In this document: positions 9,041 to 45,548 of the stretch, in pieces
Layout of the letters: each line of letters opens with the position of its first letter
How positions within the stretch are numbered: position 1 is the stretch's first letter
Assembly: GCA_005656395.1 (NCBI GenBank)
Contig: SRSI01000079.1
Location: 2,474,623 to 2,538,622 of the forward strand
Reading direction: 5' to 3'
Source of the DNA: Strongyloides papillosus
Taxonomy: Eukaryota > Nematoda > Chromadorea > Rhabditida > Strongyloididae
DNA length: 64,000 bases
Made by a program: the position numbers and the translations under genes
The notes under the pieces: generated by a model
The model's database searches: none
Seen by the model: only the letters and a program-made list of their open reading frames with translations
Told to the model about the DNA's origin: nothing

Positions 9041-9093
9041 TGGCCATAGCCGGGTTCGAACCGGCGACCTTCTGCGTGTAAAGCAGACGTGAT
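9041..9093 (-). pseudogene. tRNA-Val (TAC), 3' part, cut by a transposon
   Basis: Reads on the minus strand as anticodon stem-loop (TCTGC-TTTACAC-GCAGA), T-arm and acceptor 3' strand TATGGCC plus discriminator A. The 5' part (GGTCGTA, D-arm) lies at 21495-21524. AGACGTGAT is present at both break points (9085-9093 and 21495-21503), a 9-bp duplication. Removing the insert and one duplicate gives a normal tRNA-Val, so this gene is certainly disrupted. Confidence 0.92.
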
Positions 9094-9341
9094 GGGTACA
9101 CGTCAATCTTTCAAAAATTTTTGTCAAAAAACGCAATCTAGACGATTGTGTGATTTTTGACAAAAAATGCAATCTAGGATTTTATATAATAGTAATATAT
9201 ATGTATATTATATACTACCATTATACAAAATACCAAATTGCCCCAGCCTCAGTAACTAAAACTGAAACTGGGTTTTATAAACCAACGACATAGTAAAAGT
9301 ACCTACCCCACACCTATTTCATTCACTTATAATTTTTATGT

Positions 9342-12312
9342 GAATTGTCGCTTTTTTACCGCCTGACGATAGCGTCTTTCTCTATTTTTTATTGTCATCA
9401 AAAATGGACAAATCTAAAGATCTATCGGAAAAAAGAAGAAAAGTGAAGATTAAGCTAGCATCTAAACTTCAAAATGACGAAACTGCTAATAATTTAATAT
9501 TTGCTACTTATAACTGCAGGTCTTTTCCAAAAGGAGGAGAACAAGAACTCATTTACCAAATGAATAACCAAAAAATAGATTTGATTACATTAACAGAAAC
9601 AAGAAGTAAAAAAAAACAAACTGTAACAGAAAATGGTTTCTTAATATCCCTATCAGATGGAAATAAATTTGCAGGGGTAGGATTTGCCATAAACAATAGA
9701 TTAAGAAGGTCAGTAATTCAAATTGAATATTACAACGAGAGAATTGGGTATCTAGAAATGAAAATTGATGACTACGAAATCGGCATATGGGTAATATATT
9801 TTTACACAGAATGTTCCAACAATGAAGAAGAAAAAGAAAAGCTAATAGAGATACTAATTGAGAAAGTGAAGTCCAAACAACACTTACACCAGAAAATGAT
9901 AATGGGAGATTTCAATGCGTGTATTAGTTAATAGTAAAATTAACAGAATAAATGGTGGGAGAAATTTTGAAAATATCAAAATTAACTCAAACGGTGAATA
10001 CCTACTTAAATTAGCAATTGATACAGAAATGGCTATTACCAATACGCATTTTCAGAAAAAACCACATAAAAGATGGACACATGAATTACCTGGGCCAGTT
10101 AATAAACGTGAATACAAAGAAGATAGATGGAAATATAGAAGAACACTCGATTATATTCTAGTGAAAGACATCCGAAGTATAAATGATACACAAGCATTAA
10201 ATAAAGAAAAATTTGACCCATTTTCTTCAGATCATAGACCATTATATTGCAAAATCGTAATAAACAAAAAGTTAATTAGTGCTATGAAATATGCAAGATA
10301 CCTACAGAAAAAAAAGAAAATTAACAACTTTGATGAGATACTATCTGGAAGAGCAAAAGAGATTCAGAAAGAAATAGAAAATAAACTAAAATCAAATACA
10401 AGTAACGTGGATAAAAAGATAGAAACATTAACAAAAGTTATAAAACAACAGGTAGAAAGACTGAAAGAAACTACAAAGAAAAATTCAAGAGATTATTATG
10501 AAGGATCAACAAAAAGTATGTTGAACGATAGAATGAATCTACTAAACAAATTGAAATCGTCATCAAAAATAGAAGAAAGAAGAAAGATAAGACAAGAATT
10601 ATTAATAATAAGTATGTACATTCGAAAGAAAATGAAAGAAGACAAAGAGTTAAAAGAAAAAAGAATAGTCGAAGAATATCTAGCAAAAAGAAAAGGTATC
10701 AAAAAAGCAAGAAAAGAATTGATAACAGACAAAATAGAAATTTTGATATACCAAAAAGTAATTCAAAAATATTATGAAGATCTCTTTAAACTAAAGGAAG
10801 AAGATCATGAATACGTACAAATATTCAAAAACGAAATAAATAATATCGAAAAAATAGAAGAGAAAGAAGAGAGCTTTACAATGAAAGAAATGTTTTATGC
10901 TTTTAAAAGTTTATCCAAATATAAAGCAATGGGTGTTGATAATCTGTTATCAAACGATATTAAATTAATTTTTAAAAATAATCCTTCAATTCTATTAAAA
11001 TTAGTTAATGAAATGTTTGAAAAAGTAGAAACTCCTAAGACATTTAAAATATCAAAAGTGATTCTACTTTTTAAAAAAGGTTTAAAAGAAGATCTCAACA
11101 ATTATAGATGCCTGTCAATAACAACACATCTATACAAATTAGTAACAATTCTAGTACTGAACAAACTTAGGAAATATACGGAAAGTGAGAATGGAATAGG
11201 AAAATATCAAGGAGGATTTAGACCAAATAAAGATTGTTCATACTGCATAACAACAGTAGAAAAAATAATTGAAAAAAGATTAGAATATGGAAAAAGTATA
11301 GGTATAATATGTTTAGACTTCTCAAAAGCATTCGATAAGATGTACAGAGAAGGAATAGAATAAGGACTAAGAATGTTACAACTACCAGAAAATTTGATCC
11401 AATTTATAAAAGAACTAACATTTCAAAATATCTTATCATTTGAAATAAATAATAAGAGCTTCCTAATTGAAACAGAAAGAGGTGTAAAGCAAGGGTGCTC
11501 AATATCACCAATTCTGTATACAATAGGCCTTGAAATGGCATTAAGAGAAGCTAGTAAAATTCTGGAGGAAAATGAAAAAACGTTAAAGAAAAACATGCAA
11601 CCAAATGGAATAGAAATAGGAAATAAAAACGAAAAAATGATACTAAGATGGATGTGCTATGCTGATGACACATGTTTGATAGTTCCAAACAGAAGAGCAG
11701 CACAATTACTATGTAAAACGGTTGAAGAATGCTGCAAAAAATACGGTCTCTCGCTTAATGCAAGTAAAACACAAATGATAGCAACGAGTACCTTTCTAGA
11801 TGGAGTGGAAATTGATGGGGTAAAATTAAAAGCTCAAAAAGAGCTGAAATACCTTGGAAAAATAATTTCAATTAAAGAAAGGAAACTTAATACTACAGAA
11901 ATAAGGAAAAAAATATGGAAAAAAAATGTTTGCTATCAAGAAAATACTTTAAAAATGGCCTAAGGGGAAAATTGGAACATATTTGTATAATGCAATTATA
12001 ATACCCACAGAAATATATGGAATATCATGTGGTTCAATTAATAAAACTGAGAAATCAAAAATAAATGGCACCTTGAAACAAATCACAAAGAAACTTGCCG
12101 TATCTTTTGACGAACAAAAAATATGGGAAAGAATCTACAAAGATAAAGAAAGAATAATATGTAAAAATGTAATGGTAAAAAAGATAAAAGAAAAAGATGA
12201 ACAAAAAAAGAGGAAAAGAGGAAGACCAAAAAAGCGCTTAGAAGAGTAATGTTAAATGTGAGCAAAATTAATATAATTTTCGAATCCAAGTTGTAAATAA
12301 ATAAATAAATAA
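9342..12312 (+). mobile_element. RTE-like non-LTR retrotransposon, dead
   Basis: Sits inside the tRNA-inserted element: ATAATTTTTATGT (13 bp) is present on both sides (9329-9341, 12313-12325), and copy 2 of the host element at 44.2 kb has the site once, without the insert. It ends in a TAAA repeat tail rather than poly(A), as in the RTE group. Length 2971 bp with a short 5' leader of ~60 bp. The target duplication is perfect, so the insertion is not ancient. Confidence 0.88.
9404..12249 (+). pseudogene. Endonuclease-reverse transcriptase ORF, broken
   Basis: The first ATG is at 9404. N-terminal apurinic-type endonuclease: ATYNCRSF, LITLTETRS, MGDFNA, and further on SSDHRPLY. Reverse transcriptase follows: LDFSKAFDK, RGVKQGCSISPILY, catalytic CYADDT, LNASKTQM. 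The C-terminus ends in RKRGRPKKR, an AT-hook-like motif. It is broken by a frameshift near 9920-9930, an in-frame TAA at 11361-11363 (frame resumes at once), and a frameshift near 11950. Endonuclease plus RT with no RNase H and no gag ORF fits the RTE group. Confidence 0.85.
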
Positions 12313-12833
12313 ATAATTTTTATGTCACTTTAAATAAAATGATCTAATAATGATTAATATATACATTTTTTCGATAAAATATAAAGTGATAAATTATATA
12401 ACTTATGAAAATATACATTATTTTGATCATATTTGGTATAAAGAAAATTTTTAAAACATAAATTGTATTTAACAATAATAATTGTATTAGTGTTACATAT
12501 TTTTATTTAATATGAGTATTCTATTTTTCCAATGTACAAACATATCCAGTACATATATTAACGAAGAAATCGCTCTTAGAATTTTATAACCTTAAAATTG
12601 GTGTTTCAGTCTTAAAAAGTATATATTTCACAAGGATAATAATTTTGTTATCATTATTACGATGTAGTAAAAAATTCGTACTTCAAATTGGTAAAATCTA
12701 AAGTAAATATACTTGATATTTATATTTTATTAATAACTATCTTGAGTGAAACGAGAGAGACCTCGTTTCTTTTTATTTTGTTTTGATGACCAAAAGGGTT
12801 ATGTGACCCAGTCATCCTTATAATTTCTTTACC

Positions 12834-12840
12834 TATAAAA
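12834..12840 (+). promoter_or_regulatory. LTR TATA box
   Basis: TATAAAA in the context CCTATAAAAGGAGG, about 90 bp into the LTR; the likely pol II promoter of the element. The same site is in the 3' LTR. Confidence 0.65.
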
Positions 12841-13007
12841 GGAGGATTACCTAAACCTCCTGGCTTGTTTCGCTTGTTAGTTTTATCCTTTTTACCCACG
12901 TAATTGTATTAACCTATTCACCCTCTAATATTCTAATTTCCCTACTCCTACTATTGTATTCTCCCTACTACACTGGTGATTCTTTATTGTATCTTTTATT
13001 TATATAT

Positions 13008-13013
13008 AATAAA
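13008..13013 (+). promoter_or_regulatory. LTR polyadenylation signal
   Basis: AATAAA about 75 bp before the LTR end, placed as expected for R/U5 polyadenylation; repeated in the 3' LTR. Confidence 0.5.
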
Positions 13014-13084
13014 GTTTCTATATTATCACTAGTGTACTAACCTTAGAAGAACTGGAGACCAGGCACAAATCACTTAATTTTTGC

Positions 13085-15798
13085 TGGAAGTTATAACCTG
13101 GTTGTGGATCTCTAAAAGTCCACCATCTCCAACCGTATCCGAAGCTGGTCAAGGATACGTAGTCCAAAGATTGGATCAGTCATCTAAGGCGAATCTCCAA
13201 CAACTCGGAGTCTTATCGGGAGATCTTGTCAACCCAAACTAACAATTCTGTAGAATCGTGCACCCGTGTTTGCACACTTTTTTGTTCGTGAATCCCCGTT
13301 ACTGGAGCCGTGTGAAATCCACCAACATTCTTATTATTCTACTAGTAGCCGTTATTATTCTTACTTTACTACCTCTATATTACATTATTTCTCTATTTCG
13401 CGTACTTCTTTGGGAAAATTCGAGGATCCCAAATATTTATTAATTTTTCTACATTTATCTATCCTGTTGGAGCCGATACCCAACAGAATCTTATTTATTC
13501 GTGTTCTACCGTGGTCTACACGTAAGCCGCCTTCGTCTAGCGCCGTGTACATAATTCTGATATCAATAGTCCATCTAGAAAGGACAATCCGTTGGTGAAG
13601 ACAGGGTCAGCTGCATCCTGTAGTGTGTGTGTATATGAGCCATCTCTTGGAAGCTCCTCTTCTATTCTGTAAGCCTGTGATTAGTGTCACAGCATCTTCA
13701 ACTGTTCTGGAGGACCCGTGGGAAAGGTCCGTCTCTACTCTTGGGCTCTACATAGTGGTACTGGATCCACTATTCTCAACTCTTGTGTACGTGAGAAGCA
13801 ATCGATAAAGCTCTCACTTTTCTACATCTGACTACTCTTGGGGGATTATCTGTGAAGAATTAGAATCTTCTCTGGACTTGGAACTCGGACTTGGACTTAA
13901 CTTGGATCTTCGTGTATTCTGGACTCTTTTATTCTGGATCACTACTATTCTATATTCTTCTATCTATTACTCTATACTATCTATATTCTTCTATCTATTA
14001 TTCTATTCTACCGGTATCATATATTCCAATATATATACCGTCTATCTATTCAGTGGGATATAAGCCTTTGTGAGCGTAAGACATTTAATCTAGTGGGAAC
14101 AAGCCCTGCATCTGGGAAAGTGCAGTCATCTAAGAATATCGCTAAGAATTGTGGAATCCTCTGTCATACTGGTATATTATTTAGCACTTTTGAATCTTCT
14201 AAACGTTTGGGGGTATATTTCTGTGAACCTATTGGCAGCTCAGCAAACTCATCTTCTGCAGCATATTATTCTACTTTATTTATTACTAGCCGCATTACCG
14301 TATTCGTGCTATTCTATATTCTTTTTTTTATTCTTCTATTATCTAATAGTAATCTAATCTCAAGCCTGGTGAGAACGTTGCAGAATTCATCACTCATTTC
14401 TCAGTCACCAGCCGTCTTCAACTCTAAAGTCAGCAGCAAGCACATACTAGTAGAAGTCACTACTAATTAACTTCTATCTAGTTCTTCAATAGTAAATAAT
14501 CAACCTACATCAATAACTCTACTACATCAATAACTCCAACTCACTACAATCTTAACCAAACAATCCCAGTACAAATCCTGATCGAAAACTGTAGGGATCT
14601 ATGACGCACAAATTGGATTAAAAATATCCAACATATTATTTATTATTTACTATTTATTATTTATTTACTTTGTTTTACTATTATTTACTGTGTTTATTAT
14701 TATTTTACTACCATTTTATTAACTTTTTACTACTATTTATTTATTTACTATTATTTTTATTGTGCTATTTATAATTTTATTATACTATATATTACCCTTG
14801 AACACCCACAAGGATATTTATACTTGAAGAAACATTTGTGATCTGGTGCGAACCATTATCCAGATTTTGTGAACGAAATTATTAAATAATTCTGCCCCGA
14901 TCGAACTATTATTAAAGGGGAAACTCTATCACTTGAGAACGAACTATCTAAAATTCTGGAGAACAACTATTTGCTCTTAAATTCGAATTAAATATAGTAA
15001 GAGCTAGCGAAATCTTGATCTATCTACATTATTATTATCGTTCAAACTAAAAATTTTATTATTTCTCTATATTTCTAAAAACTATAATTTATCGTGCTGT
15101 TATCACTTTACAGCTCGATCCATTTAATCTCCAGCCGCATTTATCTAGCAGCTTGAAAAATTATTTACTTGCTATTTATATTTTGCTATACGAACGAATT
15201 TTTACTTCCTACATTTATTTGCTATTTCGAACTACGCAACTCAAGTTACGCACATACCCTTATTACTACCAATTATAAGGGAACTCTTAAACTATATTTA
15301 TTATCTATTTATTAGCAAACTCCAAAGGAGCTTGATACTTTTGTTGATAACTCCTCTGTAGCTTGCGATTATTTTACTATTTATTTAATTGCTATTTGGT
15401 TATCTATATTATTTTATTTACTTGCTATCACTTAAACTTACAAAATTTTTGGGCGTTCACTCAGGGATTTTATTTCATCAGGAAGATCTTCGGATTCTCC
15501 ACCTGATCAAGACCCTGATTCTGAAATCTCACTTGAACATAGTGAGGAAGAATACCGTCCTAGTTCTCGAACTGTTCTTGAATCTCACGAAGTTATAACT
15601 CGCAGTAAAGTTAAAACTAGGAAACCATCTACACGTTCTAAAAAGATACAGGAGGACGAACTTTATCTCCTTAATTCTACAAATAGTCTAAACTTACAAT
15701 CTCAAATAGCAAATAACCAACCTTCGCACATTCAAATAGCAAATAACCTATCACGCATCAATAACCTTCCAACTACGCAACTTAAAAAGCCAAAGAAA
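13085..15798 (+). other. Unusually long leader of the LTR retrotransposon
   Basis: 2.7 kb between the 5' LTR and the first gag ATG. It is pyrimidine-rich (many CTATT/TTATT runs, a TTTA-type microsatellite near 14625-14790) with several short chance ORFs. From about 15436 the gag frame is open with no ATG for ~120 codons before 15799, and CAG acceptor-like sites (near 15464 and 15481) lie at its start. A spliced leader that extends Gag at its N-terminus is possible; it is not shown. Confidence 0.6.
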
Positions 15799-18700
15799 AT
15801 GTCATTTGCTTGGACTTCACTTAAACCTTACGAACTTAAAGACTCGAACTTGAAGGCATATATTACCAGACTAGAACGATTGCTACTTATTGACGACATT
15901 ATTGATGACCAAAAGAAACTTAATGCTTTATTATCACTTATGCCTGATCCTATACTTCATTATTACGAAACTATTCAAAGTCCAGCAGAATCCTATCAAG
16001 CTGTTAAATCTACTATTCTCGAAAAATTTGGTGATAATATTTCTGTAGCAGCCGCACACTCTCGTCTCCGTGCGTTTTCATTAAACTGGAAGGAAAGCGA
16101 ATTTATGCAGAGCCTAACCGAATATGGTAATCTAATTAAGGCAACTGCTCCTTCACTTAATCATGAAGAATTACTGGCCACGCAAATTAACGCGGTAACC
16201 AGGTTAGTTAATGCGAATGACTCGCTCTTTAACAGATTGCTAAATAAATGCGATTATAAGACTTTTTCAGAAGTCGTATTGGACTTGCACTCCATTCTCG
16301 TCACTAATAAAGCTAGAAAAGAGAGGACATCAGCAGCTCATTCTATTCGTCGTAGCCGTAAACCCACAAAATGCTTTTATTGTGGTCGTCTTGGTCATGT
16401 TGAAGCTGATTGCCGTACTAAAAGAAGAAATCTAGCACGTTCCTCTACTTCGCAATCTCAATTTTCTCAAGCCTCTCAATCTAGTAATGTATATCGTCCT
16501 ATTTATTCTACTTCTTCATCTAAAGCTAATGCAGTTAATTCGAAACCACGTCATCCTACTAAACCGAAACAAAATCCTACAACTTCAGTAGTAAATTCAG
16601 TCGAACTAAATAAAGATGATCGAAATGGACCTCAAACCATAGTTCCTCTTACTATTCAGGACTATGAAGGTACTGCTTTAGTGGACACTGGCGCAACAGT
16701 GGACCTTATTAAAGAAAGTGTTGTAAAATCTATTAATCAACCTATATCTTCTCGAACTCGCATTATTAGAACTGCTTTAGGCGATCTTAAATCTACGAAA
16801 GGTCAAACTTTAATTACTTGCCGTCTTGGATCTTCAACTTTTGTCTCTATAGCAGATATCGTTGAGGATAACTTCATGGACCGTTGTTATGATATGATAC
16901 TTGGCACTCATTCTCTTCAAAAGCTGGGTAAAATTACTGTTAGTTGGAAAGACCGTTTACTCTTTATCAGAAAGAATGCTATTCCATTTATTGAAATCGA
17001 AACTCAAACCAACACTGTTAATGAAGTTAAAATTGCGAAACCTGAAGATACTATTGACGTGAGAAAAGAATTTCCTGACTTGCTAGATGTATTTAGCAAA
17101 GACAAATACGACATAGGTGAATGTACTATTCAAGTACCACCTCAATCATTTACGGAAGATAAGCTACCTCCTTTAAGAAGGTACAATTTTCCGCCCTCTA
17201 TTATTAATGTTGCTCGTGAAGAAATCGAAGCACTAGTTAAATCTAAAGTTCTCGAACCTGCTGATAACTTAACTCATCTTCACAATCTCATCTTTGTGAG
17301 AAAGGAAGATGGATCCTTGCGACCTACTACTGATCTTAGACCTACGAATAAAATAACTGTAAAAGCCACATATCCGAACAAATCTCTAAGAGAAATGCTA
17401 CGTATTAAAGAAGCCGGTTTATTCACTAAATTAGATATGACTCAAAGTTTCCATCAGTTTAAATTAGATCCGAAGGACTATGATCGTTTTGGAGTTTACA
17501 CACCATGGGGATGCTATCGCTATCTCAGGCTACCTCAAGGTTTCTGTAATTCTCCATCTATCTGCCAAGAAATAATGGATAGAATCACTCGCGAAACCGA
17601 ACATGCTACTTCTTTTCTTGATGATGTTATTATTTCTACTCGACCTAATCGTGAATTTCACTTACAAGAAGTTAGAAACACACTTCGCATCTTTAAAGAA
17701 TATGGACTTAAGTTAAATGAAAAGAAATGCGTATTTATGAGCAAGGAAGTTACTTTCCTTGGACACCGAATTAATTATGAAGGTATTTCACCTGATAAAA
17801 CTAATGTCGATGCTATTTGTAAAATTCAACCACCTACGAATATCAAACAACTACGCATGTTTATTGGCGCAGTTGGATTCTTTAGTATGTTTATACCGAA
17901 CTATAGCAATCTTATGAAACCTCTATTTGATCTATTAAAGAAAGATAAACCTTTTACTTGGTCATCTGATCAACAATCCGCATTTCAAAAAGCTAAGGAT
18001 TCTTTACTTTCGAACAAAGTCTTAGCACATTATGATCCTTCTAAAGAACTTTATATTTTCACAGATGCTAGTCAAAAAGGCTACGCAGGAATCTTATGTC
18101 AGAAGTTTGATGGACATTTTCGACCTATTATGTATTGGAGTAAATCCAGACCCAACCTGAAGCGTAATTATTCTTCTTGCTTAATTGAACTTCAAGCCGG
18201 TGTACTTTTCATGAGGAAAGTCAAGCATCTACTGCTGGGGAATACAACTATTTGGTATACGGATAGTAAAAGCCTCAGTCAAATTCTTCATAATTCCGAT
18301 GATATCAAATACTCTTCCTATATAGACGAACTTCAGCATTACAACCTTCAAGTTAAGCATCTTCCTGGTACCAATAATTCAATGGCAGATCTTCTTTCTC
18401 GTTGTGACTACTTCCAACAGAAGTGTTCAAATCTTACTGAACCACCTGCAGCTAATTTTGTATCAGAAATAGATTTAGTTGGTGAACAAGCCAAAATTGA
18501 AAAATTCTTAAAGTCTAAACCTGAAATCCAAAAAGTTCATAATATTTACGGTATCTACGAAAAAGGACCTGATGGTATTATCAAGTTCAAACCTTACCTA
18601 CCTGATCACCTTCTCGAACCTATTTGCAAAGATGCACATCTTCAAGGTCATTTTTCACCTCCGAAGATGGAACTTATGATAAATCAATGTTGGGCTAATG

Positions 18701-20061
18701 AGAAAACACGTAAAGCCTGTGAGAAAGTCTATTCCGAATGCAAAGAATGCCTATTCCGAAACCGTCTTAATAATAAAATTACCGATCCTCGCATTGTAGC
18801 TTTCCAAAAGCCACGAAGTTGCTATAATCTTGATATTTGCGGACCATTTCCTACTCACCTAAGTCAAAACGGAAATCGGTATATCCTACTTTGTGTGGAT
18901 AGTTTTAGCCGTTTCTGGATGGCAACACCGCTTAAAACAACCTCAACTAGCGAAGTTAGTTCTACTCTTATGAAAGAAATAATTTACCGTTATGGTAGAC
19001 CTATTCTTATGAAAAGCGATAACGCAACTTATTTGAACAATCCTGCTATGGAGCAGATTTGTAAATCTGCCGGAGTTAAACTTTATCATGGAAGACCTTA
19101 TATTCATACCAGTCAAAGTCTAGTCGAAAGAGCTTTTCTCAGCCTGGAGAACATTATCTCCAAAATAATCAACTCCGACTCTCAACCACAGTTTAAATAT
19201 TGGGACGAATGTCTTAATATGGCTGTGCATTTCTATAATAATTCACCTCAGTTAACTCTGAAAATCTCACCTTACGAACTCTTCTTTGGTACTGAACCAT
19301 ACTTAGACTTCCATACCGTAATCGAACAATTTGATGAAAAACTAGTTGACCGCGAAAGACAGTTTCAAGAGTTAGCATGGAAGAGGAAAAATAGTTATAT
19401 GGCAGCTTATCAAGCTATGCTAGAATCACGTCTCAAGGCAGCTCAAAAATTAAATAGACAAGTCATTAATTTTTCCATGGGGGTTGGGAAACAAATCCTG
19501 TTGAAGAAGGCTAATCCTTCAACAAAATTTGATTATATTTACGAAGGGCCGTACACTGTTCTCGAAAGTGACCCATACACTGTCAAATTCAAGAAAGACC
19601 CAAGCAGCAGAAAGATATTTCACGTACATCTTTCTCAAATCAAGCCTTATCGTGTTGAAGACGAACCTATCCAACCTACTTCAACACAATTCGAAGATAT
19701 TTCTCTACCTATTCCTACTTCTAATATTCAAAGTAATCCTAATTCTTCTAGTATTCCTAATTCTTCTTGTATTCCTAGCACACATATTCCTACTGATGGC
19801 AGCAATCTTCTTCTCTCTTCTTCTGAATTGCCTAGAGTCAAAAGACCTAGAGGCCGTCCTCGTAAACAGCCGTTAAATCAGCCACCATCTTCAAAACCAA
19901 AAGCACCTCAAGTTACTAAGCGACCAAGAGGTAGACCGCCGAAACGGAGAAAATTTTTATCTGCTAGGAGAAATAATAATCTTGGACCTGGAACCAAGGA
20001 TTCACATGGACCTAATGTACAAGTTAGGAAACGTGGGAGACCACGTATTCACGCTAACTAG
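15799..20061 (+). CDS. Gag-Pol fusion polyprotein, Ty3/gypsy type, 1420 aa
   Basis: A single ORF without stops. Residues 1-180 are retrotransposon Gag; the zinc knuckle CFYCGRLGHVEADC is at ~192-205; the protease active site VDTGAT at ~295-300. Reverse transcriptase has LDMTQSFHQF, LPQGFCNSP and catalytic FLDDV. RNase H has FTDASQKGYAG and YTDSKSLSQ. Integrase has the HHCC finger (HLQGHF...CKECLF) and D-D-E residues in DICGPFP, KSDNATYLNN and SLVERAFLSLENI. The last ~80 residues carry three GRP-core AT-hook motifs (RPRGRPRK, RPRGRPPKRRK, RKRGRPR). Gag and Pol share one frame, so no frameshift is needed. The ATG at 15799 is the first in frame, but upstream in-frame sequence may add an N-terminus. 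It looks competent for retrotransposition. Confidence 0.95.
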   Translation: MSFAWTSLKPYELKDSNLKAYITRLERLLLIDDIIDDQKKLNALLSLMPDPILHYYETIQSPAESYQAVKSTILEKFGDNISVAAAHSRLRAFSLNWKESEFMQSLTEYGNLIKATAPSLNHEELLATQINAVTRLVNANDSLFNRLLNKCDYKTFSEVVLDLHSILVTNKARKERTSAAHSIRRSRKPTKCFYCGRLGHVEADCRTKRRNLARSSTSQSQFSQASQSSNVYRPIYSTSSSKANAVNSKPRHPTKPKQNPTTSVVNSVELNKDDRNGPQTIVPLTIQDYEGTALVDTGATVDLIKESVVKSINQPISSRTRIIRTALGDLKSTKGQTLITCRLGSSTFVSIADIVEDNFMDRCYDMILGTHSLQKLGKITVSWKDRLLFIRKNAIPFIEIETQTNTVNEVKIAKPEDTIDVRKEFPDLLDVFSKDKYDIGECTIQVPPQSFTEDKLPPLRRYNFPPSIINVAREEIEALVKSKVLEPADNLTHLHNLIFVRKEDGSLRPTTDLRPTNKITVKATYPNKSLREMLRIKEAGLFTKLDMTQSFHQFKLDPKDYDRFGVYTPWGCYRYLRLPQGFCNSPSICQEIMDRITRETEHATSFLDDVIISTRPNREFHLQEVRNTLRIFKEYGLKLNEKKCVFMSKEVTFLGHRINYEGISPDKTNVDAICKIQPPTNIKQLRMFIGAVGFFSMFIPNYSNLMKPLFDLLKKDKPFTWSSDQQSAFQKAKDSLLSNKVLAHYDPSKELYIFTDASQKGYAGILCQKFDGHFRPIMYWSKSRPNLKRNYSSCLIELQAGVLFMRKVKHLLLGNTTIWYTDSKSLSQILHNSDDIKYSSYIDELQHYNLQVKHLPGTNNSMADLLSRCDYFQQKCSNLTEPPAANFVSEIDLVGEQAKIEKFLKSKPEIQKVHNIYGIYEKGPDGIIKFKPYLPDHLLEPICKDAHLQGHFSPPKMELMINQCWANEKTRKACEKVYSECKECLFRNRLNNKITDPRIVAFQKPRSCYNLDICGPFPTHLSQNGNRYILLCVDSFSRFWMATPLKTTSTSEVSSTLMKEIIYRYGRPILMKSDNATYLNNPAMEQICKSAGVKLYHGRPYIHTSQSLVERAFLSLENIISKIINSDSQPQFKYWDECLNMAVHFYNNSPQLTLKISPYELFFGTEPYLDFHTVIEQFDEKLVDRERQFQELAWKRKNSYMAAYQAMLESRLKAAQKLNRQVINFSMGVGKQILLKKANPSTKFDYIYEGPYTVLESDPYTVKFKKDPSSRKIFHVHLSQIKPYRVEDEPIQPTSTQFEDISLPIPTSNIQSNPNSSSIPNSSCIPSTHIPTDGSNLLLSSSELPRVKRPRGRPRKQPLNQPPSSKPKAPQVTKRPRGRPPKRRKFLSARRNNNLGPGTKDSHGPNVQVRKRGRPRIHAN

Positions 20062-20537
20062 TACCTATTCTCTAATTAACTATTATTATCTATGTTAAAT
20101 TTATACCAGTGTTAGTAGTGGACATTTGATTATGTTATTGTCCTATTGTCATTATTTTATTTTTACTCTATTACCTATTTTATATGCTTACACAAGAATC
20201 TTCTTGTGCAATTTTGTTCTTGTAATCTTTTTATTGTAATCTATCTGATGTTTTATGTACTACTGTGAATTTTGTTTACTATCATCTTTATCTTGCTATT
20301 TCAAGTTGCTATTTCAACTTGCTATCTCAAGTTGCTATTTCACTTTGTTTAAATTTTGGCAACCTGCTAAAGTTGCTATTTCATCACTTTGTTATTCTAA
20401 AGTTATTTTACTCTTGTTTTAATGCTATATAGCAGATTCTTCCCTACTTAACTTTATTATTATATCATGTTGCTACCTAAATTATACTCTTATTATTTCA
20501 TATTAGATTTTCCTACGGAAATCTCCAAGTGGGGTAG
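20062..20537 (+). other. 3' untranslated region with a short tandem repeat, then polypurine tract
   Basis: At about 20293-20342 a 15-17-bp unit close to TTGCTATTTCAAG is repeated three to four times, with diverged copies further on. The tract AAGTGGGGTAG lies directly before the 3' LTR. Confidence 0.7.
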
Positions 20538-20877
20538 AGTGAAACGAGAGAGACCTCGTTTCTTTTTATTTTGTTTTGATGACCAAAAGGGTTATGTGAC
20601 CCAGTCATCCTTATAATTTCTTTACCTATAAAAGGAGGATTACCTAAACCTCCTGGCTTGTTTCGCTTGTTAGTTTTATCCTTTTTACCCACGTAATTGT
20701 ATTAACCTATTCACCCTCTAATATTCTAATTTCCCTACTCCTACTATTGTATTCTCCCTACTACACTGGTGATTCTTTATTGTATCTTTTATTTATATAT
20801 AATAAAGTTTCTATATTATCACTAGTGTACTAACCTTAGAAGAACTGGAGACCAGGCACAAATCACTTAATTTTTGC
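20538..20877 (+). repeat. 3' LTR (340 bp)
   Basis: Identical by eye to 12745-13084; followed by the duplicated target TCTTG. Confidence 0.95.
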
Positions 20878-21494
20878 TCTTGCAAAATATCAAAAAATAT
20901 CTTTTAGATTTATGACATTATTTTTGTTAACATTATTTATGATGCAGTAAAAATCTTATATTTTCAGAATAGTAAAAATTTAGATTGATTTTGTTGTAAT
21001 ATTTAAATTGAATAATATTTACCCTTACAAAGTAAAAATTTGTTTTTATTTAAAATTAATACCATATTTTCTAGTTTAAAATAATTTTGCTAACGTTATT
21101 AATATTCATGACATAGTAAAAATCTATACTTTAAATTTGTAAAATCTAGAGTAATTATGTTTAACAATTGAATTTTATTAACAATTTGCTTAATAATTAA
21201 CAAGACTTTACTTACATTTTAATTATTAATGAATACATAGATTACCAACATAACATAAAATTTTTTTATATTCAAAATGTTACTATATAAATTTAATTTA
21301 CCAATAAAACAACAATAACATAAGTAATACATTAAATCATCAAAAAAATATTAAAAATTACATTTTTTCTTTGTTTATAATAGAATAAATTTACATAATT
21401 CTTATATTTTATAAACATAATCCGACACGAAACATGGTAAAAAATCACTGTGTGATTTTTGGCAAAAAACGCATTGTAAGATTGACGTGCTACC

Positions 21495-21524
21495 AGACGT
21501 GATAACCGACTACACCATACGACC
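21495..21524 (-). pseudogene. tRNA-Val (TAC), 5' part
   Basis: On the minus strand it reads GGTCGTA (acceptor 5' strand), TG, then the D-arm GTGTAGTCGGTTATCAC, ending in the duplicated AGACGTGAT. It pairs with the 3' part at 9041-9093. The internal A-box region stays with this half and the B-box with the other, so pol III could not make a normal tRNA. Confidence 0.9.
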
Positions 21525-21631
21525 TGGGGGTAGGGAAATTTTCTTCTCACAACTAAAATTATTTTGTTAAAAAATTGTCATAAAACTACATATAAACGAC
21601 TTTTTCTTTCCATAACTAAATATAAAGTATA

Positions 21632-27290: not shown

Positions 27291-27296
27291 TATAAT

Positions 27297-37900: not shown

Positions 37901-38922
37901 TTCAAGATTTTGAGTACTTTAAAAGATGTATCTCAAGAACGAGATTTAGCATGGGACTGATATTACATATTTAGATTTACTATTATGAAACATCAATATT
38001 TTAATAAAAATTTTATTTGAAATCGAAAATTATTTTTCGAGGCACAGCTCTCCTCTAAGATATTTGGATTAATTTTTAAGTAAAAATTAACTTTTATTAT
38101 ATTAAAAAAATATTATTTTTGTTAATCAACTTAATATAAAAATAATGTTTAAATTCTAAAATAGTAAAAATACAATCTATAAAAAGTTTTTAATAAATCA
38201 ATAGTAAATTAAACATTTTTATCATCATATTTCTATTTGTTTTTTCGCCAGTTTTATCTATAGATTATTTAAATATTTTATTCATAGATGATTGGAGACA
38301 GATAAATAAACTTTACTTTATGTTAAACTTCTTTTCTTTTAATTAGTAAATATGTTGAAAGACTATGAATTCATGTTCTGGTGCGGTAATATTTGATAGG
38401 AAATTACTAATAGATAATAAATTAAAATATTTTATTTAAGATAATAAGAAATTTTACAATTAATAGGATTAAAGTTATTATATAATTTAGAAGAAAAGCT
38501 AGATTGTTTTTACTTTACTTAATATTTTGCATGATATCTCAGATGCATTAACATTTGTGATAATAATAAAATAATTTGGATCATTAAAAAAGAGTATATA
38601 CATTTTCACAATAGAGTACTATGTATTGTATGAAATAATCTTTTTATTTATTATATTAATTTATATTTGTTCTTTGAATATGGTATCATTTAAAGTAATA
38701 TCATTTAAAACTTATATAATATTTGTTAATGTCCCCGCTACAAATTACATTCATATCAAGACACATCAGATCATAATTACAAAAATAAAATAATATTGTT
38801 ATATAAAGAAATTCGTTAAAAAACGTACAAAGCTCTAATTTGCTATTTTAATATAAAACTCATAACGTAATATAAAAAGACAGAAACTTAATTAAAAGCA
38901 CTTTAGAAAGCAAAAAAGTTCT
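34911..38922. other. 4-kb AT-rich desert with a minisatellite
   Basis: No gene. A GC-richer patch lies at 34995-35040 (CGCGAACTCGCTTCGCTCGT). At 36570-36745 a 25-27-bp unit resembling GACTTCTATTTTCTAATTCT is repeated about six times. At 36900-37950 phrases such as TATCTCAAGAATG recur, suggesting another old repeat. Confidence 0.5.
36570..36745. repeat. 25-27-bp minisatellite, ~6 diverged units
   Basis: Units end in TTCTCGATGA, TTCTCGAAGAG, TTCTTGAGGAG and similar. Divergence is high. Confidence 0.55.
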
Positions 38923-38994
38923 TGGAGATATGGGGAATCGAACCCCAGCCCTCTCCCATGCTAAGGGAGCGCTCTACCCCTGAGCTATATCCCC
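38923..38994 (-). tRNA. tRNA-Ala (anticodon AGC)
   Basis: Acceptor GGGGATA/TATCTCC, D-arm GCTCAGGGGTAGAGC, anticodon stem CTCCC/GGGAG with loop TTAGCAT, T-arm with GGTTCGATTCC. 72 nt. Confidence 0.96.
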
Positions 38995-39318
38995 ACGAGC
39001 ATTCGACTTTTCTATTTTGTTGCTGAAATAAACTAGTAAATTGTTATTACTTTTTTAAAAGCTAATATAGTAAATATTATCTTTTTTCAGATGTAAATTA
39101 TTACTTTGTTTTAGAATTTTTTACAGAAATATAATATTGTAATCATTTCTTTATAAAAGCTAATAATAACAATAAAGTAAATTCACCCTACATTTATAAT
39201 AAATCAAAATTCAGTTGAAACAGTAGAAGTTATGATTATTTGTTAACTATTTACACGTTAATATCATATTAAATAAATTAATATTATAAATTAATGTTCA
39301 GAATGAATAAAAATATAT

Positions 39319-39532
39319 AGTCAGATATATTCATAAATATCTCTTGACACGAATTAGTCAGGATCTGTTTTACTGTATAATTTTATCATGTTTTATCATA
39401 TAATATTCATTTTATCATTCCCCACCATTCCCCATCATTTCATAATTATTGTTATAGTGTGTTCCCTTTTTAAATATATATTCATGTTTGTATTTATTAT
39501 AGGTTACACACCAGCTTAAATAAAATTTTAAC
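39319..39532 (+). repeat. 5' LTR (214 bp)
   Basis: Matches 41428-41640 except for one T in a run. Confidence 0.9.
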
Positions 39533-39793
39533 TTGTCGATTAGAGAGTAAGCAATTTTAACTGGATTCGCTGAAATCTAGGGGCAAGTTAACTCCAAATT
39601 CAAACGACGTATTTCAATCATCTGTTCTTATCGCTAAAGGAAAACGTACACCTGCATCAAAGAAACCACTGTCATCCACTCCAAATCTGTCTGTCTTACA
39701 GATCAAAAGTAATCAAATTCTTCATACACCAAACCATTACAAATCTATCCAATACAACTACCTTTCTACTCTACTACATACAATCCGAAGAAA

Positions 39794-41512
39794 ATGACAT
39801 ATCACTTTACTCTTGCCGTTACCAAATACTCTCATACTGAAACTTTCAGAAAGTTCTCAGCCTTTCTTTCTCAAATCCGCGATGCCTTTTCTATTGATGG
39901 TGTTACTGATGAAAATATCAAATTTCCACTTTTAAGAAGTTGTCTTGATGACAAAACTCGCGAAATGATATCAACTACGAAACCAGATGAAACCTTTGAA
40001 CAGTACTTGATCCGTCTTGCTGCAATATTCGATGATACCTTAATCACGAATGATCTTGAAACACAATACTCTTTCTTCAAACTGAACTTCTCCAGCGATA
40101 AGTTTGAGGAAACTCTCCGTGAATTCGTCCAGCTCCATGAAACCATATATCGTGATCTTCCGGCAGAACTCAATTTTCAATCTTTCCGTCGTCGCTTATT
40201 AGATCTTCTCACTCCAAAGCCAAATCTCTTCAAAGTTATTCTCAACAGTACTGCTACAACAAATCCAACTCTTGTTACTACACTGGTTCACTTCTTCAAA
40301 GCGAATGGTCTCTTACACAAGCATTCTCTAGACACCTGTATCTCTACAATGGACAACTATATTCCAGCTTCACTATATACAAAACAAGAACATATTTCGT
40401 CTCCAAATACTTTTACTGTCAAAAACGAAGTTAACAACACATCTACAACTACCGTTCAATCATCACCTATTATTATCAGACAAACTACGACGAACAATGT
40501 CTCTTCAAAAACTATCATGGACCCCGACTCCAACGCTATCTACATTGATCCAAAAGTTAAGAACCAAATTATTCTCTCTAATGTTCTTGAATCTATCAAC
40601 CAAATTTCATCAAATGGTCATCCACATTCTACCATACCCGCTCAACATCCAACTATTAAATCTCTAGATGGACATTCTTATGCATCAAACACAGGTTTTG
40701 ATAATCCTACCAAAGCACTAGATCCCGAAAATACACTGAGAGATGACTCTTTCCAAAAATACCTACCAATTACCCACCACAACGATTATGAAATGGTAAA
40801 TGGAAAAATTGAAACACCAAAACAAACTTTCTTTTCTGAAACTGATAGCAAAACTACGTATGGTTACAAATCTTCAAATCAACTAGCTGATTCAATTAGC
40901 CTTTTCTTCCCTTCAAAAACTTTTCTTCAAAAAAAACGCGTTAGGTTTAAAACCACACAATCTCTTCACTACAAAATTGATCAACTTGACTCTTCTGAAG
41001 CTTTTGTCTTCAAAATACCAACTAGCCAACAGCTACTCTTTGATGCCGCTAAAAATAACACCCCACGGGAAGGAGTCTACTTAAAACGGCGTGGCAATGA
41101 TGTTGTCACATCAAAAAATCAAATCATTCTGAACTCGTTAGAAGAAACATCAAAGGAGAACAAGCACATCATCCCCTTCACCGACATTGTTACAAAATAT
41201 AGAATTGCTGCTCCACTTCCCGATACTACTAGTTCAACAATTATGAACGTTATCACTTCAATCATTCAAACTCTTGGACCTATGAAATCATTACACACGG
41301 ATAACACTGCATATCTCAAGAAAAATCCACAAGAAAACTCGAACCAAAATTCTTTGATACCTGTCAACTACCATCTTTTTCTATTGATAAGAATATCCAC
41401 CAGGAATCTCAAAGTAAAGGATGAAGGAGTCAGATATATTCATAAATATCTCTTGACACGAATTAGTCAGGATCTGTTTTACTGTATAATTTTATCATGT
41501 TTTATCATATAA
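39794..41512 (+). CDS. Gag-like protein fused to an integrase remnant, 572 aa
   Basis: ATG at 39794; no stop for 572 codons. Residues 1-190 look like retrotransposon Gag (helical, with regularly spaced Leu/Phe). The middle is Ser/Thr/Asn/Pro-rich and unstructured, with no zinc knuckle. Residues ~461-508 (FTDIVTKYRIAAPLP... LHTDNTAYL) match the integrase core around its first and second catalytic Asp, but the Glu and zinc finger are absent. The last ~28 residues are read from the 3' LTR. It is best explained as an internal deletion that joined gag to integrase in frame. The open frame could be selection on Gag or simple youth. Confidence 0.7.
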   Translation: MTYHFTLAVTKYSHTETFRKFSAFLSQIRDAFSIDGVTDENIKFPLLRSCLDDKTREMISTTKPDETFEQYLIRLAAIFDDTLITNDLETQYSFFKLNFSSDKFEETLREFVQLHETIYRDLPAELNFQSFRRRLLDLLTPKPNLFKVILNSTATTNPTLVTTLVHFFKANGLLHKHSLDTCISTMDNYIPASLYTKQEHISSPNTFTVKNEVNNTSTTTVQSSPIIIRQTTTNNVSSKTIMDPDSNAIYIDPKVKNQIILSNVLESINQISSNGHPHSTIPAQHPTIKSLDGHSYASNTGFDNPTKALDPENTLRDDSFQKYLPITHHNDYEMVNGKIETPKQTFFSETDSKTTYGYKSSNQLADSISLFFPSKTFLQKKRVRFKTTQSLHYKIDQLDSSEAFVFKIPTSQQLLFDAAKNNTPREGVYLKRRGNDVVTSKNQIILNSLEETSKENKHIIPFTDIVTKYRIAAPLPDTTSSTIMNVITSIIQTLGPMKSLHTDNTAYLKKNPQENSNQNSLIPVNYHLFLLIRISTRNLKVKDEGVRYIHKYLLTRISQDLFYCIILSCFII

Positions 41513-41640
41513 TATTCATTTTATCATTCCCCACCATTCCCCATCATTTCATAATTATTGTTATAGTGTGTTCCCTTTTAAATATATATTCATGTTTGTA
41601 TTTATTATAGGTTACACACCAGCTTAAATAAAATTTTAAC
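41428..41640 (+). repeat. 3' LTR (213 bp)
   Basis: Copy of 39319-39532; the fused ORF ends inside it. 41646-42070 beyond holds nothing recognised. Confidence 0.9.
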
Positions 41641-42069
41641 TATATCTATTAAAATTATAATACTTTAAATCAAAATAAAATTGATAATATAAGATATCTG
41701 AAAAGTTTGCAATTATTTTTACTAGAATCTCATCTATTGTGCAAAAAACAATTGCTCTCGTGACAAAATGTACAATCACACTATATAAAGATATTTAAGT
41801 TTAATTTCATTGTAACGTTGATATAAAAATTTCCTTCATCTTCTAATGATTGTTTTTCTTCTGTATACCAATTTTTTTGGAGAAATCTTTAAATATAATT
41901 AGCGTTCTTACAGAAAAAGATGAAATGATTCATTTTGTACAAGTTATTTTTATCTATATTACCAACTGTAAACCTGCATTCGGCAGACTCAGCTAACCTG
42001 CAGAGCATAATTTATTGAAGAATTTTATGTATTAAAACATGAATCAAAATATTGTTATTAAAAATAGGC

Positions 42070-43490
42070 TATTTTTTACTGAAAACATTGACATCACTTT
42101 TTAGTATTTAACATGCTAGTTTTTGATCAATTTTTTTATATTAATTTTTTCTCTTATTGATTGCTTGCACTTTTTAAATGAATCATGAAACAAAAATACA
42201 ATTTACTTTTACCAAAGTTATTTGAAAGACAAACCTACACAAAAAAGTAGTATTTTTAAAAATAACATGGTCTATTATAAACTAAAACTTTTAAGGTTCT
42301 TTTTATTTACCAAGTTAACAAAAAAAAACTTAATAACTATTTAATCATGAAGATAGTGTAGTTTAAATAAAGTTATGTTAGTTAAAAAATTGATTTTCAT
42401 AAAAAATGAAAAAATTGAAATATTTGTTATTTAAGTAAAAATAACTTGCTATGTTATCAACTAATAAAATTTATTATAGATTTTTCTTTTAAATTAGACT
42501 TGGTAAAAATTATAGAGATAGTTTTTGTTGGAGTCTTGCACCGCTCAAAAGATACCTTTTATTTTAAACCACAAAATATAATCAGATTACAATAAACAGA
42601 ACAATTTAATTAACAGACTTAACTAACTAAGTATCCGATTTCAACTAAGTGACGGATTCAACTAAGACCTTCTAGAATACAAGAGAGATAATACAATAAT
42701 ACAATTAACATAATTAATTAAAGCTTACAGTTGAATAAAACAGATCTGTGATAACTTATCACCAGAATAATATCAGATTTCAGAAATGTAGTTTAACCCT
42801 AAAATATACAATAATTAGGTAACATAAAAATATACTAAAATGATGAAATAGTTATACAATGACTAAAGGTATAAATGAAATAAAATGACAGATCTGTACT
42901 ATATATAAAAAGAAAAGAATCTTCTAGAAATAAAAAACAAAAAGTTAGTTTTGGGATAATGTTTTTCCCATGATCTAGATAATTCTATAAGAGAAAATAG
43001 ATGAGAAATAGAAGAGCCTTAGGTACAAAGAGTAAAGTACAAATGAGAACATTCAATAAAAGACTATATTCTTACTACTTAGATCTATGTAAAAAAATAT
43101 TATTTTGTTTTTTAATCAAGTTACCACAAAGTTATACCTATTTGACCTTCAATTTTTTTAAAACAGTTGTCATTTTTTGAATCATAATCTTGCCGATTAT
43201 CAATTAATTCTAATATTACTATGTTTTCAGACTATTCTAGAATTTTACTTTTTCAATGTTATACTAGCCAAACTTTTTGTCAACTTTGATGTAGATTATT
43301 TTTTAAACAAAACTATACTAAAAGTCTAAGAAAAGTGTTTTTTAAAGAATAATATAATCAAATTCTATCTAAAAATTTTAAAACTTTTTAGTTTCTCTGA
43401 TTGAAAAAACAATCTTTTAGCTATTTATTCACGAAAATCGGTTGAATTTTAAAAACGTTTTGAGAAGATTAAATTAGTTTTTTTATATTT
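42070..43490 (-). repeat. Two inverted copies of the 525-bp repeat, separated by an insertion
   Basis: On the minus strand 43490-43100 and 42520-42070 align to successive parts of the tandem repeat at 2.5-4 kb; for example AACCGATTTT...AAATAGC, and CATGATTCATTTAAAAAGTG against the + copy's GACTCATTTGAAAAGTACA. 42527-43090 breaks the match and is a separate insertion. Confidence 0.65.
42527..43090 (-). mobile_element. ~560-bp insertion, possibly a solo LTR
   Basis: Interrupts the 525-bp repeat. It is less AT-rich than its surroundings and contains CTATATATAAA (42898-42908, + strand) and AATAAA-like signals, as an LTR might. Neither clean termini nor a target duplication could be fixed, so a MITE is equally possible. 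Confidence 0.4.
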
Positions 43491-43896
43491 TTACTACAAA
43501 AATTATTTCTATTTTAAAAAAATTAAGCAGTTAAAAATCTATACTTATTTTTAATAGATTAACGATATTTAGTTTTTTACGTTATATGAAAGCTTGGAAG
43601 AACCACAAAAGTTAATATATATGATTCAAAACGTCATCTTGTAGTTATCCATTTATTCTAAATCTTTATATTGTTTTCGTACTCAAAAAAGTACACTAGC
43701 TTTGTTAAATATGCATTTCATATAGAAATACAGTATTTCGTAAATCTAGTCACTTAAAAACTCATTTAAAACAATATAGTAGTAATATTTAACAGTTTTT
43801 TTTAAAAAGAAAACTATAGTGGATAAAGATATGTATAGACATACTTCTCTACTAGTATAATTACGGTAGTAGAGAAGTAGGTAATGGTCCTGAATC

Positions 43897-43970
43897 GCCT
43901 CATTAGTTCAGTTGGATAGAATGTATGACTTCTAATCATAAGGTCCTCGGTTCGAGCCCGGGATGAGGCT
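43897..43970 (+). tRNA. tRNA-Arg (anticodon TCT)
   Basis: Acceptor GCCTCAT/ATGAGGC, anticodon stem TATGA/TCATA with loop CTTCTAA, T-arm CTCGG-TTCGAGC-CCGGG. 74 nt. The D-arm is GTTCAGTTGGATAGAAT, slightly atypical. Confidence 0.94.
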
Positions 43971-44181
43971 TAACAAACACACTTTTTGATATTATTGCTC
44001 TTTACTAATGTTTATATTTATTCTAAACAATTAATACTATGAATTATTTTTTTAATTTGTTTCGGAATAAAAAAAGCTTTCTTATTCATCATCAATATGA
44101 ACTTTCTTGATAATAATAGCTACTAAATATTCAAAAATAATTTTTCTTTGTAAACAATAGAAAGAAGAGAACTTTAAAAGA

Positions 44182-44239
44182 TGCCTCATGCTGGAATCGA
44201 ACCAGCGACCTTCTGTTTACTAGACAGACGCTCTGCCCC
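44182..44239 (-). pseudogene. tRNA-Thr (AGT), 3' part, cut by a transposon
   Basis: Minus strand: anticodon stem TCTGT/ACAGA with loop CTAGTAA, T-arm GCTGG-TTCGATT-CCAGC, acceptor ATGAGGC plus A. The 5' part is at 45526-45548. CTCTGCCCC is present at both break points (44231-44239, 45526-45534), a 9-bp duplication. Confidence 0.92.
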
Positions 44240-45525
44240 GGGTACACGTCAATCTTTCAAAAATTTTTGTCAAAAAACGCAATCTAGACGATTGTGTGAT
44301 TTTTGACAAAAAATGCAATCTAGGATTTTATATAATAGTAATATATATACATAATATATACTACCATTATACAAAATACCAAATTGCCCCAGCCTCAGTA
44401 ACTAAAACTGAAACTGGGTTTTATAAACCAACGACATAGTAAAAGTACCTACCCCACACCTATTTCATTTCATTCACTTATAATTTTTATGTCACTTTAA
44501 ATAAAATGAAAATGATCTAATAATGATTAATATATACATTTTTTCAATAAAATATAAAGTGATAAATTGTATAACTTATGAAAATATACTTTATTTTGAT
44601 CATATTTGGTATAAGGAAAATTTTTTAAACACAAATTGTATTTAACAATAATAATTGTATTAGTGTTACATATTTTTATTTAATATGAGTATTCTATTTT
44701 TCCAATGTACAAACATATCCAGTACATATATTAACAAAGAAATCGCTCTTAGAATTTTATAACCTTAAAATTGGTGTTTCAGTCTTAAAAAGTATATATT
44801 TCACAAGGATAATAATTTTGTTATCATTATTACGATGTAGTAAAAAAATCCGTACTTCAAATTGGTAAAATCTAAAGTAAATATACTTGATATTTATATT
44901 TTATTAATAACTATCTTGCAAAATATCAAAAAATATCTTTTAGATTTATGACATTACTTTTGTTAACATTATTTATGATGCAGTAAAAATCTTATATTTT
45001 CAGAATAGTAAAAATTTAGATTAATTTTGTTGTAATGTTTAAATTGAATAATAATCACCTTACAAAGTAAAAAATTGTTTTTATTTTAAATTAATACCAT
45101 ATTTTCTAGTTTAAAATAATTTTGCTAACGTTATTCATGACATAGTAAAAATCTATACTTCAGATTTGTAAAATCTAAAGTAATTATGTTTAGCAATTGA
45201 ATTTTATTAACAATTTGCTTAATAATTAACAAAAATTTACTTACATCTTAATTATTAATGAATACATAGATTACCAACATAACATAAAATTTTTTTTATA
45301 TTCTAAATGTTACTATATGAATTTAATTTACCAATAAAACAACAATAACATAAGTAATACATTAAATCATCAAAAAAATACTAAAAATTACATGTTTTCT
45401 TTGTTTATAATAGAAGAAATTTACATTAATCTTATATTTTATAACCATAATCCTGACACGAAATATGGTAAAAAATCACTGTGTGATTTTTGGCAAAAAA
45501 CGCATTGTAAGATTGACGTGCTACC
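44240..45525 (+). mobile_element. tRNA-inserted DNA element, copy 2 (1286 bp, without nested inserts)
   Basis: Same ends as copy 1 (GGGTACACGTCAATCTT...; right end AAGATTGACGTGCTACC) and nearly the same sequence throughout, with a few substitutions and small indels. It has neither the RTE-like nor the LTR insertion of copy 1, so it is the empty-site reference for both. It is flanked by the 9-bp duplication CTCTGCCCC inside tRNA-Thr. No credible ORF. Confidence 0.92.
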
Positions 45526-45548
45526 CTCTGCCCCTGAGCCAATGAGGC
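45526..45548 (-). pseudogene. tRNA-Thr (AGT), 5' part
   Basis: Minus strand: GCCTCAT TG GCTCA, then the duplicated GGGGCAGAG. With the 3' part it forms a standard tRNA-Thr. 45549-46113 beyond it is AT-rich with nothing recognised. Confidence 0.9.

Follow-up and report, generated by a model that had tools for sequence, protein, structure and literature searches.

Transposons with terminal inverted repeats interrupt tRNA genes in Strongyloides papillosus and carry a putative spliced-leader-derived RNA gene

What kind of DNA element splits two different tRNA genes within one short stretch of a nematode genome? We addressed this question for a window of 64,000 nucleotides (the whole stretch analysed, positions 2,474,623 to 2,538,622), which forms the end of contig SRSI01000079.1 (C3) in the 58.2-Mb assembly of Strongyloides papillosus, and in which a first-pass annotation had described a non-coding element inserting into tRNA genes with 9-bp target duplications. 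A Mo25 gene on contig C4 of this assembly matches a Strongyloides venezuelensis protein at 99% identity and its S. ratti counterpart at 84%. Our data make it very probable that the element belongs to a family of non-autonomous cut-and-paste transposons (class II, with terminal inverted repeats, TIRs), which would be moved by a separately encoded enzyme, be guided to genes of RNA polymerase III (Pol III) and carry an RNA gene derived from a spliced-leader (SL) gene.

Both window copies lie on the plus strand, have the same ends and belong to the same subfamily, termed A. Copy 1 (9094..21494, 12.4 kb; assigned by its ends, target duplication and segment map) is bracketed by the direct repeat AGACGTGAT at 9085..9093 and 21495..21503, and separates the 3' part (nt 22-74; 9041..9093, also a partial Rfam match) from the 5' part (nt 1-30; 21495..21524) of a minus-strand tRNA-Val(TAC) gene. 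Copy 2, the full-length 1286-bp element (44240..45525), has a left TIR, GGGTACACGTCAATC, at 44240..44254 and a right TIR, GGTAGCACGTCAATC on the minus strand, at 45511..45525; its longest stop-to-stop frame measures 65 aa. It is bracketed by CTCTGCCCC at 44231..44239 and 45526..45534 and splits a tRNA-Thr(AGT) gene, likewise on the minus strand, into a 3' part (nt 15-72; 44182..44239) and a 5' part (nt 1-23; 45526..45548). Joining the flanks into an empty site and running ARAGORN restored both tRNAs, and extents, duplications and cut positions (nt 22-30 in Val, nt 15-23 in Thr) came out exactly as first annotated.

Further copies were collected genome-wide with the 1286-bp copy as query (at least 49 matches; 126 candidates, of which 40 were scored), with TIR patterns and with a query from a second subfamily; their flanks were fetched, searched for 9-bp duplications, joined into empty sites and passed to ARAGORN. 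The element or its fragments occupy at least 66 places (loci are given L numbers and contigs C numbers), in several subfamilies of 0.7-1.3 kb. A 9-bp duplication brackets 41 copies, exactly in 38 and with one mismatch in three, and 37 of these 41 interrupt a tRNA gene, covering 16 tRNA identities (Asp, Phe, Pro, Ile, Ser, Thr, Asn, Arg, Trp, Tyr, Met, Gly, Ala, Cys, Val and Lys). At one more copy (L010), the duplication lies about 4 bases into a match to the signal recognition particle (SRP) RNA gene (Metazoa_SRP, 145.6 bits). With a tRNA-gene share of 1.2%, which is the density in the tRNA-rich window applied to the whole genome, 37 of 41 would be reached by chance with P ~1e-66. The proposal of tRNA-gene targeting with 9-bp duplications, far from chance, is thereby strongly supported, and the two outcomes named in advance as fatal to it, most copies lying outside tRNA genes or 9-bp duplications being absent elsewhere, were looked for and did not occur. 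The 41 copies leave out L001-L008, which are the same places as refetched loci or a window copy; L023, L027, L028, L030 and L031, replaced by the longer L080, L086, L081, L083 and L082; L036-L039, replaced by the longer L084, L043, L054 and L040; L029 and L085, which are one place with an incomplete copy retaining the right end only; and L013, whose presumed duplication has two mismatches.

When the 25 places that carry an end without a matching duplication are included, 51 of the 66 fetched places have a tRNA on at least one flank. Among these 25, three (L049, L051, L086) have two different tRNA genes on their two flanks, as expected from recombination between copies, and eight have a tRNA on the right flank only (L041, L052, L055, L057, L061, L075, L083 at 1932, and L091). 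The converse, a tRNA on the left flank only, was seen just twice: as a weak match at L090, and at L084, whose left end lies in tRNA-Val and which is truncated near the contig end; at L080, which is rearranged, both ends lie beside tRNA-Pro. The right-flank-only polarity of the eight cases is suggestive only. One of them, L057, and the bracketed L056, both on C5, are duplicated tRNA-Cys loci with right flanks 98.6% identical over 280 bp; both carry subfamily D, and the left target duplication is kept in L056 only. Since the two have this right flank in common, later loss of the left flank could also account for such a case. Six further exact matches to the left end lie outside the fetched set (C3:1477156, C14:318055, C16:92243, C22:182512, C22:190804 and C30:574195); the reversed-pattern control yields five by chance.

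Such a distribution might also arise if the element inserted at random and survived only in dispensable tRNA genes. The genome is compact, tRNA genes are redundant and selection certainly acts. Moreover, several observations count against a choice of target: three bracketed copies (L026, L034, L074) lie within no recognised RNA gene, and 11 of the 25 unmatched places (L013, L035/L067, L042, L053, L064, L065, L066, L076, L077, L078, L087) have no tRNA match at either end by script; over all 66 places, 15 lack a scripted tRNA flank. Several of these 11 are broken or diverged copies, and the right flanks of L013 and L087 look tRNA-derived by eye. Random insertion would still have to account for 37 of the 41 bracketed copies falling into roughly 1% of the genome. 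It would also have to explain the youngest copies. Among the matches listed, four further subfamily A copies match the window copy over their full length, one at 100% and three at 99% identity, which points to recent spread or activity; three of the four interrupt tRNA genes and the fourth is the copy at the SRP gene, and the bias is hence already present in the youngest copies. We regard survival without target choice as barely credible.

How would the transposase find these genes? The duplications span tRNA nt 0 to nt 57, introns counted, and start between nt 0 and nt 49; 34 of the 37 site centres lie within the first 36 nt, and the position varies inside each of the subfamilies A, B, C and D. 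The element runs opposite to the tRNA in 25 cases and with it in 12 (P = 0.047); its orientation is biased, not fixed, and the uniform orientation of the two window copies, which the first-pass annotation had noted, does not extend to the genome. One explanation is a preference at the sequence level: the enzyme would recognise a motif that recurs in tRNA genes (A box, D loop) and not the Pol III machinery. The duplications CTAACCGAC, CTAACCAAC, AACCGATTG and CTCCCAACT, which are minus-strand D-loop/A-box sequence, and the 32 of 37 site centres at nt 10-35 agree with it. It is harder to square with sites at nt 0-12 (L056, L058) and nt 38-57 (L012, L062, L033), with insertion in either orientation, with the great diversity of the duplications and with the site at the SRP RNA gene start; on balance, motif reading seems unlikely. 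As site position and sequence vary, and as the sole named non-tRNA target is itself a Pol III-type gene, we favour guidance by Pol III machinery bound at the gene, or by the open chromatin that goes with it, over recognition of one target sequence. The insertions would survive because tRNA genes are multicopy and tolerate loss.

DNA transposons of the Dada superfamily, which likewise lie inside tRNA, snRNA and other small-RNA genes, are the nearest concept, and membership of Dada had to be considered. According to the accessible parts of the two Dada papers, their sites in tRNA genes concentrate at the A box and near the anticodon (PMC8869645), which is the same kind of target, and some Dada-tL copies lie against target sequence on one side only, which is attributed to one-ended transposition (PMC3706591); copies of this kind also occur in the present element. 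Three tested Dada features are nonetheless not those of our element. Dada makes 6-7-bp target duplications (PMC3706591), as the first-pass annotation had stated, in contrast to the 9 bp of our 41 copies; TIRs are absent, as stated for Dada-U6 and Dada-U1 (PMC3706591, PMC8869645), whereas our element has short ones; and a Dada family keeps one position in one RNA gene, Dada-tV using the anticodon arm of several tRNA genes (PMC3706591, PMC8869645), unlike the 16 identities and the many positions seen here within single subfamilies. The SL-derived RNA gene is an additional difference. It is therefore highly improbable that the element is a Dada member.

The subfamilies differ in size: A measures ~1286 bp (the window copies), B ~1287 and 1147 bp, C ~713 bp, D ~965 bp and F ~706 bp. 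Read inwards, the left end is GGGTRCACGT... and the right end GGTRRCACGT..., and the bases after CACGT vary by subfamily. TIR bases 6-15 are identical at both ends in 37 of the 41 copies and differ by one base in the other four; this match within copies, at bases that differ among subfamilies, is what recognition of both ends by one protein would produce. Frames of 100 aa or more are absent from 38 of the bracketed copies, and the other three of the 41 contain nested retrotransposons. Short, with TIRs, a duplication of constant length and no transposase, the copies have the features of miniature inverted-repeat transposable elements (MITEs). 'Non-coding' was thus an apt description as regards protein, no frame of 100 aa or more being the element's own, and overlooked an RNA gene apparently derived from a spliced-leader gene. 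Two copies, L021 and L034, are enlarged by ~2.1 and 1.5 kb and have longest frames of 95 and 93 aa; at L064, a ~100-bp stretch inside an open reading frame resembles both element ends by eye.

A longer autonomous copy with the same ends, which the first-pass annotation had suggested looking for, was sought and not found. The 12.4-kb window copy was considered as such a form or as a longer relative and rejected, since it consists of the 1286-bp element and two nested retrotransposons. A LINE-type insert (long interspersed nuclear element; 9342..12312, plus strand; RVT_1, and an AP-endonuclease-like part by eye) is flanked by a 13-bp duplication of element positions 241-253. A Ty3-type insert (12745..20877, plus strand) is flanked by a 5-bp duplication of positions 675-679; it is assigned by its protease, reverse transcriptase (RT), RNase H and integrase, in this order, and not by long terminal repeats.

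The enzyme would be a DDE transposase, most likely of the Mutator type (Mutator-like element, MULE), acting in trans on the TIRs. With 9 bp, the duplication falls within the 8-9 bp typical of Merlin elements. It equals the ~9 bp of MULEs (PMC3169594). The first-pass proposal of a Mutator- or Merlin-like transposase is therefore plausible by size, and the 9 bp lead us to favour Mutator. No bracketed copy contains a transposase frame, however, and of 25 MULE domain matches genome-wide, the four loci compared (L087, L092, L102, L104) have other or undefined ends. Among 11 Merlin matches (PF12762), the two loci compared (L105, L106) do not have the element's ends; they have 8-bp duplications and the ends GGTACTCTTCC and GGCTAAAG/GGAGCTAG. 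L106 (C12:1398600-1400900) is a Merlin-type element with perfect 34-bp TIRs, an 8-bp duplication and a 252-aa frame. At L087 (C10:1626800-1632800), a MULE transposase frame that includes an Ulp1-type (C48) protease domain has a tRNA-Asn gene and a copy of the element nearby. A useful comparison is Tm1, a Mutator family of root-knot nematodes that, as far as the available part of its description goes, also combines mostly 9-bp duplications with many MITE-like copies without transposase in a nematode host; unlike our element, it has composite Foldback-type TIRs and no clear target consensus, and the RNA-type hairpin motif in one of its groups is a histone motif, not an SL gene (PMC3169594).

Two sets of similar ends were considered for inclusion in the family and set aside. 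Ends GGGTGCACGTATATTCATC (L068-L073) were dropped as a further subfamily; in L071 they look by eye like part of a piggyBac-type transposase frame, and the flanks are not tRNA. Ends GGGAGCACGTAAA...GTCCCC (L088 on C5, L089 on C6) belong to another TIR family (GGGAGCACGTAAA...CACGTGTCCCC) with 8-bp duplications at non-tRNA sites, perhaps a sibling without tRNA targeting. In addition, a repeat at L062:301-1265 (C57:52720-53684) recurs at least 60 times in the genome (552 candidates, of which 40 were scored), in several cases on tRNA-rich contigs.

What, then, do these protein-free elements carry? The stretch most conserved among the subfamilies lies near the left end and is encoded on the minus strand, where its sequence, GGTTTATAAAACCCAGTTT..., is that of the first part of the SL exon found beside this genome's 5S rRNA genes. 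Two 5S-linked SL genes, L093 and L095, have promoters that match the 80 bases upstream of it at 79-84% identity, compared with a mean of 50% and a maximum of 66% among 200 shuffled sequences. In copy 2, the SL-RNA-gene-like promoter (-80 to -1) lies at 44430..44509 on the minus strand, with 81-82% identity to L093 and L095, followed by a 22-nt SL-exon-like sequence (44408..44429, minus strand), of which the first 19 nt equal the genomic SL exon. The corresponding 22 nt of copy 1 lie at 9262..9283 (C3:2483884-2483905, minus strand); its promoter is cut by the nested LINE-type element at 9342-12312. The first 19 exon bases are identical in six of seven elements compared, and the SL RNA body is not conserved. 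The GU 5' splice site after the exon is lost as well: subfamilies A and B read TTTCAGTTT, and C, D and F read TTTCTCGGTAG or TTTCTCGATAG. Set against an SL RNA gene, the block hence retains promoter and exon start (by comparison with two of the three 5S-linked SL genes read) and lacks splice site and body; with its 5' splice site gone, the A and B block would be no ordinary spliced-leader donor. An SL origin sits less easily with the upstream identity of only 68-72% to two other SL-like genes, L098 and L099, and with the third 5S-linked SL gene, L094, whose upstream region reads differently and stands outside the identity comparison. Two loci of another kind, L096 and L097, have a complete SL exon followed by non-SL sequence and look by eye like reverse-transcribed trans-spliced mRNAs.

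In place of the splice site, the predicted fold has two hairpins followed by a T run. For copy 2, the predicted RNA (44308..44429, minus strand; two hairpins and a T6 run) has a minimum free energy (MFE) of -55.3 kcal/mol and a z of -10.7; for copy 1, the predicted hairpin RNA, placed by alignment A1 and computed folds, would span 9162..9283 on the minus strand. MFE z values range from -7.4 to -12.1 for five elements, as against -2.4 for a real SL RNA, and an Rfam scan of the window at gathering score returned no family for the putative RNA.

Constraint on this fold was examined in two alignments, A1 and A2, of 21 sequences each out of 45 distinct ones, with L022, L045 and L056 excluded for the LINE or LINE fragment they contain, and hairpin structures were taken from RNAalifold. 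Pairing is kept by 37 of 56 distinct stem substitutions (null mean 15.5; none of 5000 simulations as high), substitution events on related sequences not being fully independent. Of the 46 stem transitions, 37 keep the pair, largely through G-U pairs, which indicates the SL-like strand. Three points weaken the case. The structures were derived from the very alignments in which substitutions were counted, which tilts the count in their favour; each alignment has only one pair that changed on both sides; and shuffling gives a mixed picture. In A1, none of 500 shuffles reaches the observed percentage paired, two-sided cells or covariation score, and 195 reach the pairs with two-sided changes and 455 the further pair types; in A2, the same five measures are reached by 88, 38, 35, 229 and 219 of 500. 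Selection on the modelled RNA fold is, accordingly, likely but not proven.

A further line of support comes from a parasite of the block itself. The LINEs in L022 and L045 are nearly the same (97% identity), have an RT frame of 1343 aa from stop to stop and are inserted at one point within the SL-like exon, flanked by a repeat of GGTTTTATA; the same exon point holds a ~200-bp insert in L056 and a diverged insert in L075. This RT, whose nearest named relative is a Parastrongyloides trichosuri RT (48% identity), was considered as the element's own protein and rejected in view of the 9-bp duplication at its own insertion site, the single exon point, the empty site in most other copies and the presence of the same LINE in a real SL gene. 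In that gene, L103 (C14:146950-147350), the exon is interrupted by the 3' end of the LINE, whose sequence matches those in L056 and L045 with 99.5% identity over 197 bp and that in L022 with 95.7% over 211. Given the single exon point, the many empty sites and the copy in a real SL gene, the LINE is best seen as a parasite of the SL-like block and not as the transposon itself. NeSL elements are SL-exon-specific LINEs of nematodes (PMC4640811, in the part available), and the LINE of L022, L045, L103 and the L056 fragment has this target in common with them; it may be called NeSL-like by analogy of target, not by a tree. That an SL-specific LINE enters the mimic supports the mimic's SL identity independently.

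Is the block more than a passenger? Gene capture by Mutator elements is well known, and the block could be hitch-hiking host DNA of the Pack-MULE kind without any role, a view to which the lost 5' splice site in A and B lends itself. Mere hitch-hiking would leave unexplained why stem substitutions, read on one strand, mostly keep pairing, as in the 37 of 46 transitions, why both divergent groups retain the same hairpin plan and promoter, and why the block occurs in 54 distinct places, a list that was itself chosen for carrying the block; it is possible but doubtful. By its sequence, the left-end block appears to have been built from a host SL RNA gene, of which it keeps the promoter and 19 nt of the exon, with a predicted hairpin body under pairing constraint, and we consider it probable that this RNA is transcribed and that selection favoured it as the element spread. 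A bolder proposal is that the transposon needs the snRNA-class RNA gene that it carries and that came from the host SL gene, with an RNA that acts in the element's life cycle and might bring the transposase to Pol III loci, or titrate host SL or snRNA factors. We think this decidedly unlikely on present data; if true, tRNA gene, SL-mimic transposon and SL-specific LINE would form a three-layer system.

Matching TIRs in each subfamily, 9-bp duplications, insertion mostly into tRNA genes and once at an SRP gene, and the lack of an own protein frame were observed directly. This combination with an apparently SL-derived gene was not found described in the literature searched. Among the titles and abstract beginnings listed from the open-licence literature, with Repbase outside this scope, there was no case of an SL gene inside a DNA transposon and none of a tRNA-gene DNA transposon that makes 9-bp duplications, and the accessible parts of PMC1657053, PMC5014426 and PMC9203780 contain nothing on the tRNA-gene TIR element.

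Targeting of Pol III genes is a textbook safe-haven strategy of retrotransposons. Ty1/Ty3 and the TRE elements of Dictyostelium find these genes through the transcription machinery and insert beside them, whereas the element described here is of the TIR type and lies inside the gene. For DNA transposons, the established example is Dada, whose families each keep to one position. The first-pass observation is confirmed and its interpretation partly supported; what emerges is a family of tRNA-gene transposons with TIRs, guided by machinery or by motif, that carries a putative SL-derived RNA gene. That a TIR element occurs in 16 tRNA identities at variable positions, and in an SRP RNA gene, suggests a DNA transposase led to its targets by the machinery. 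A putative SL-derived RNA gene as transposon cargo was not found described among the open-licence literature listed, and its pairing constraint suggests that this RNA may matter to the element that carries it.

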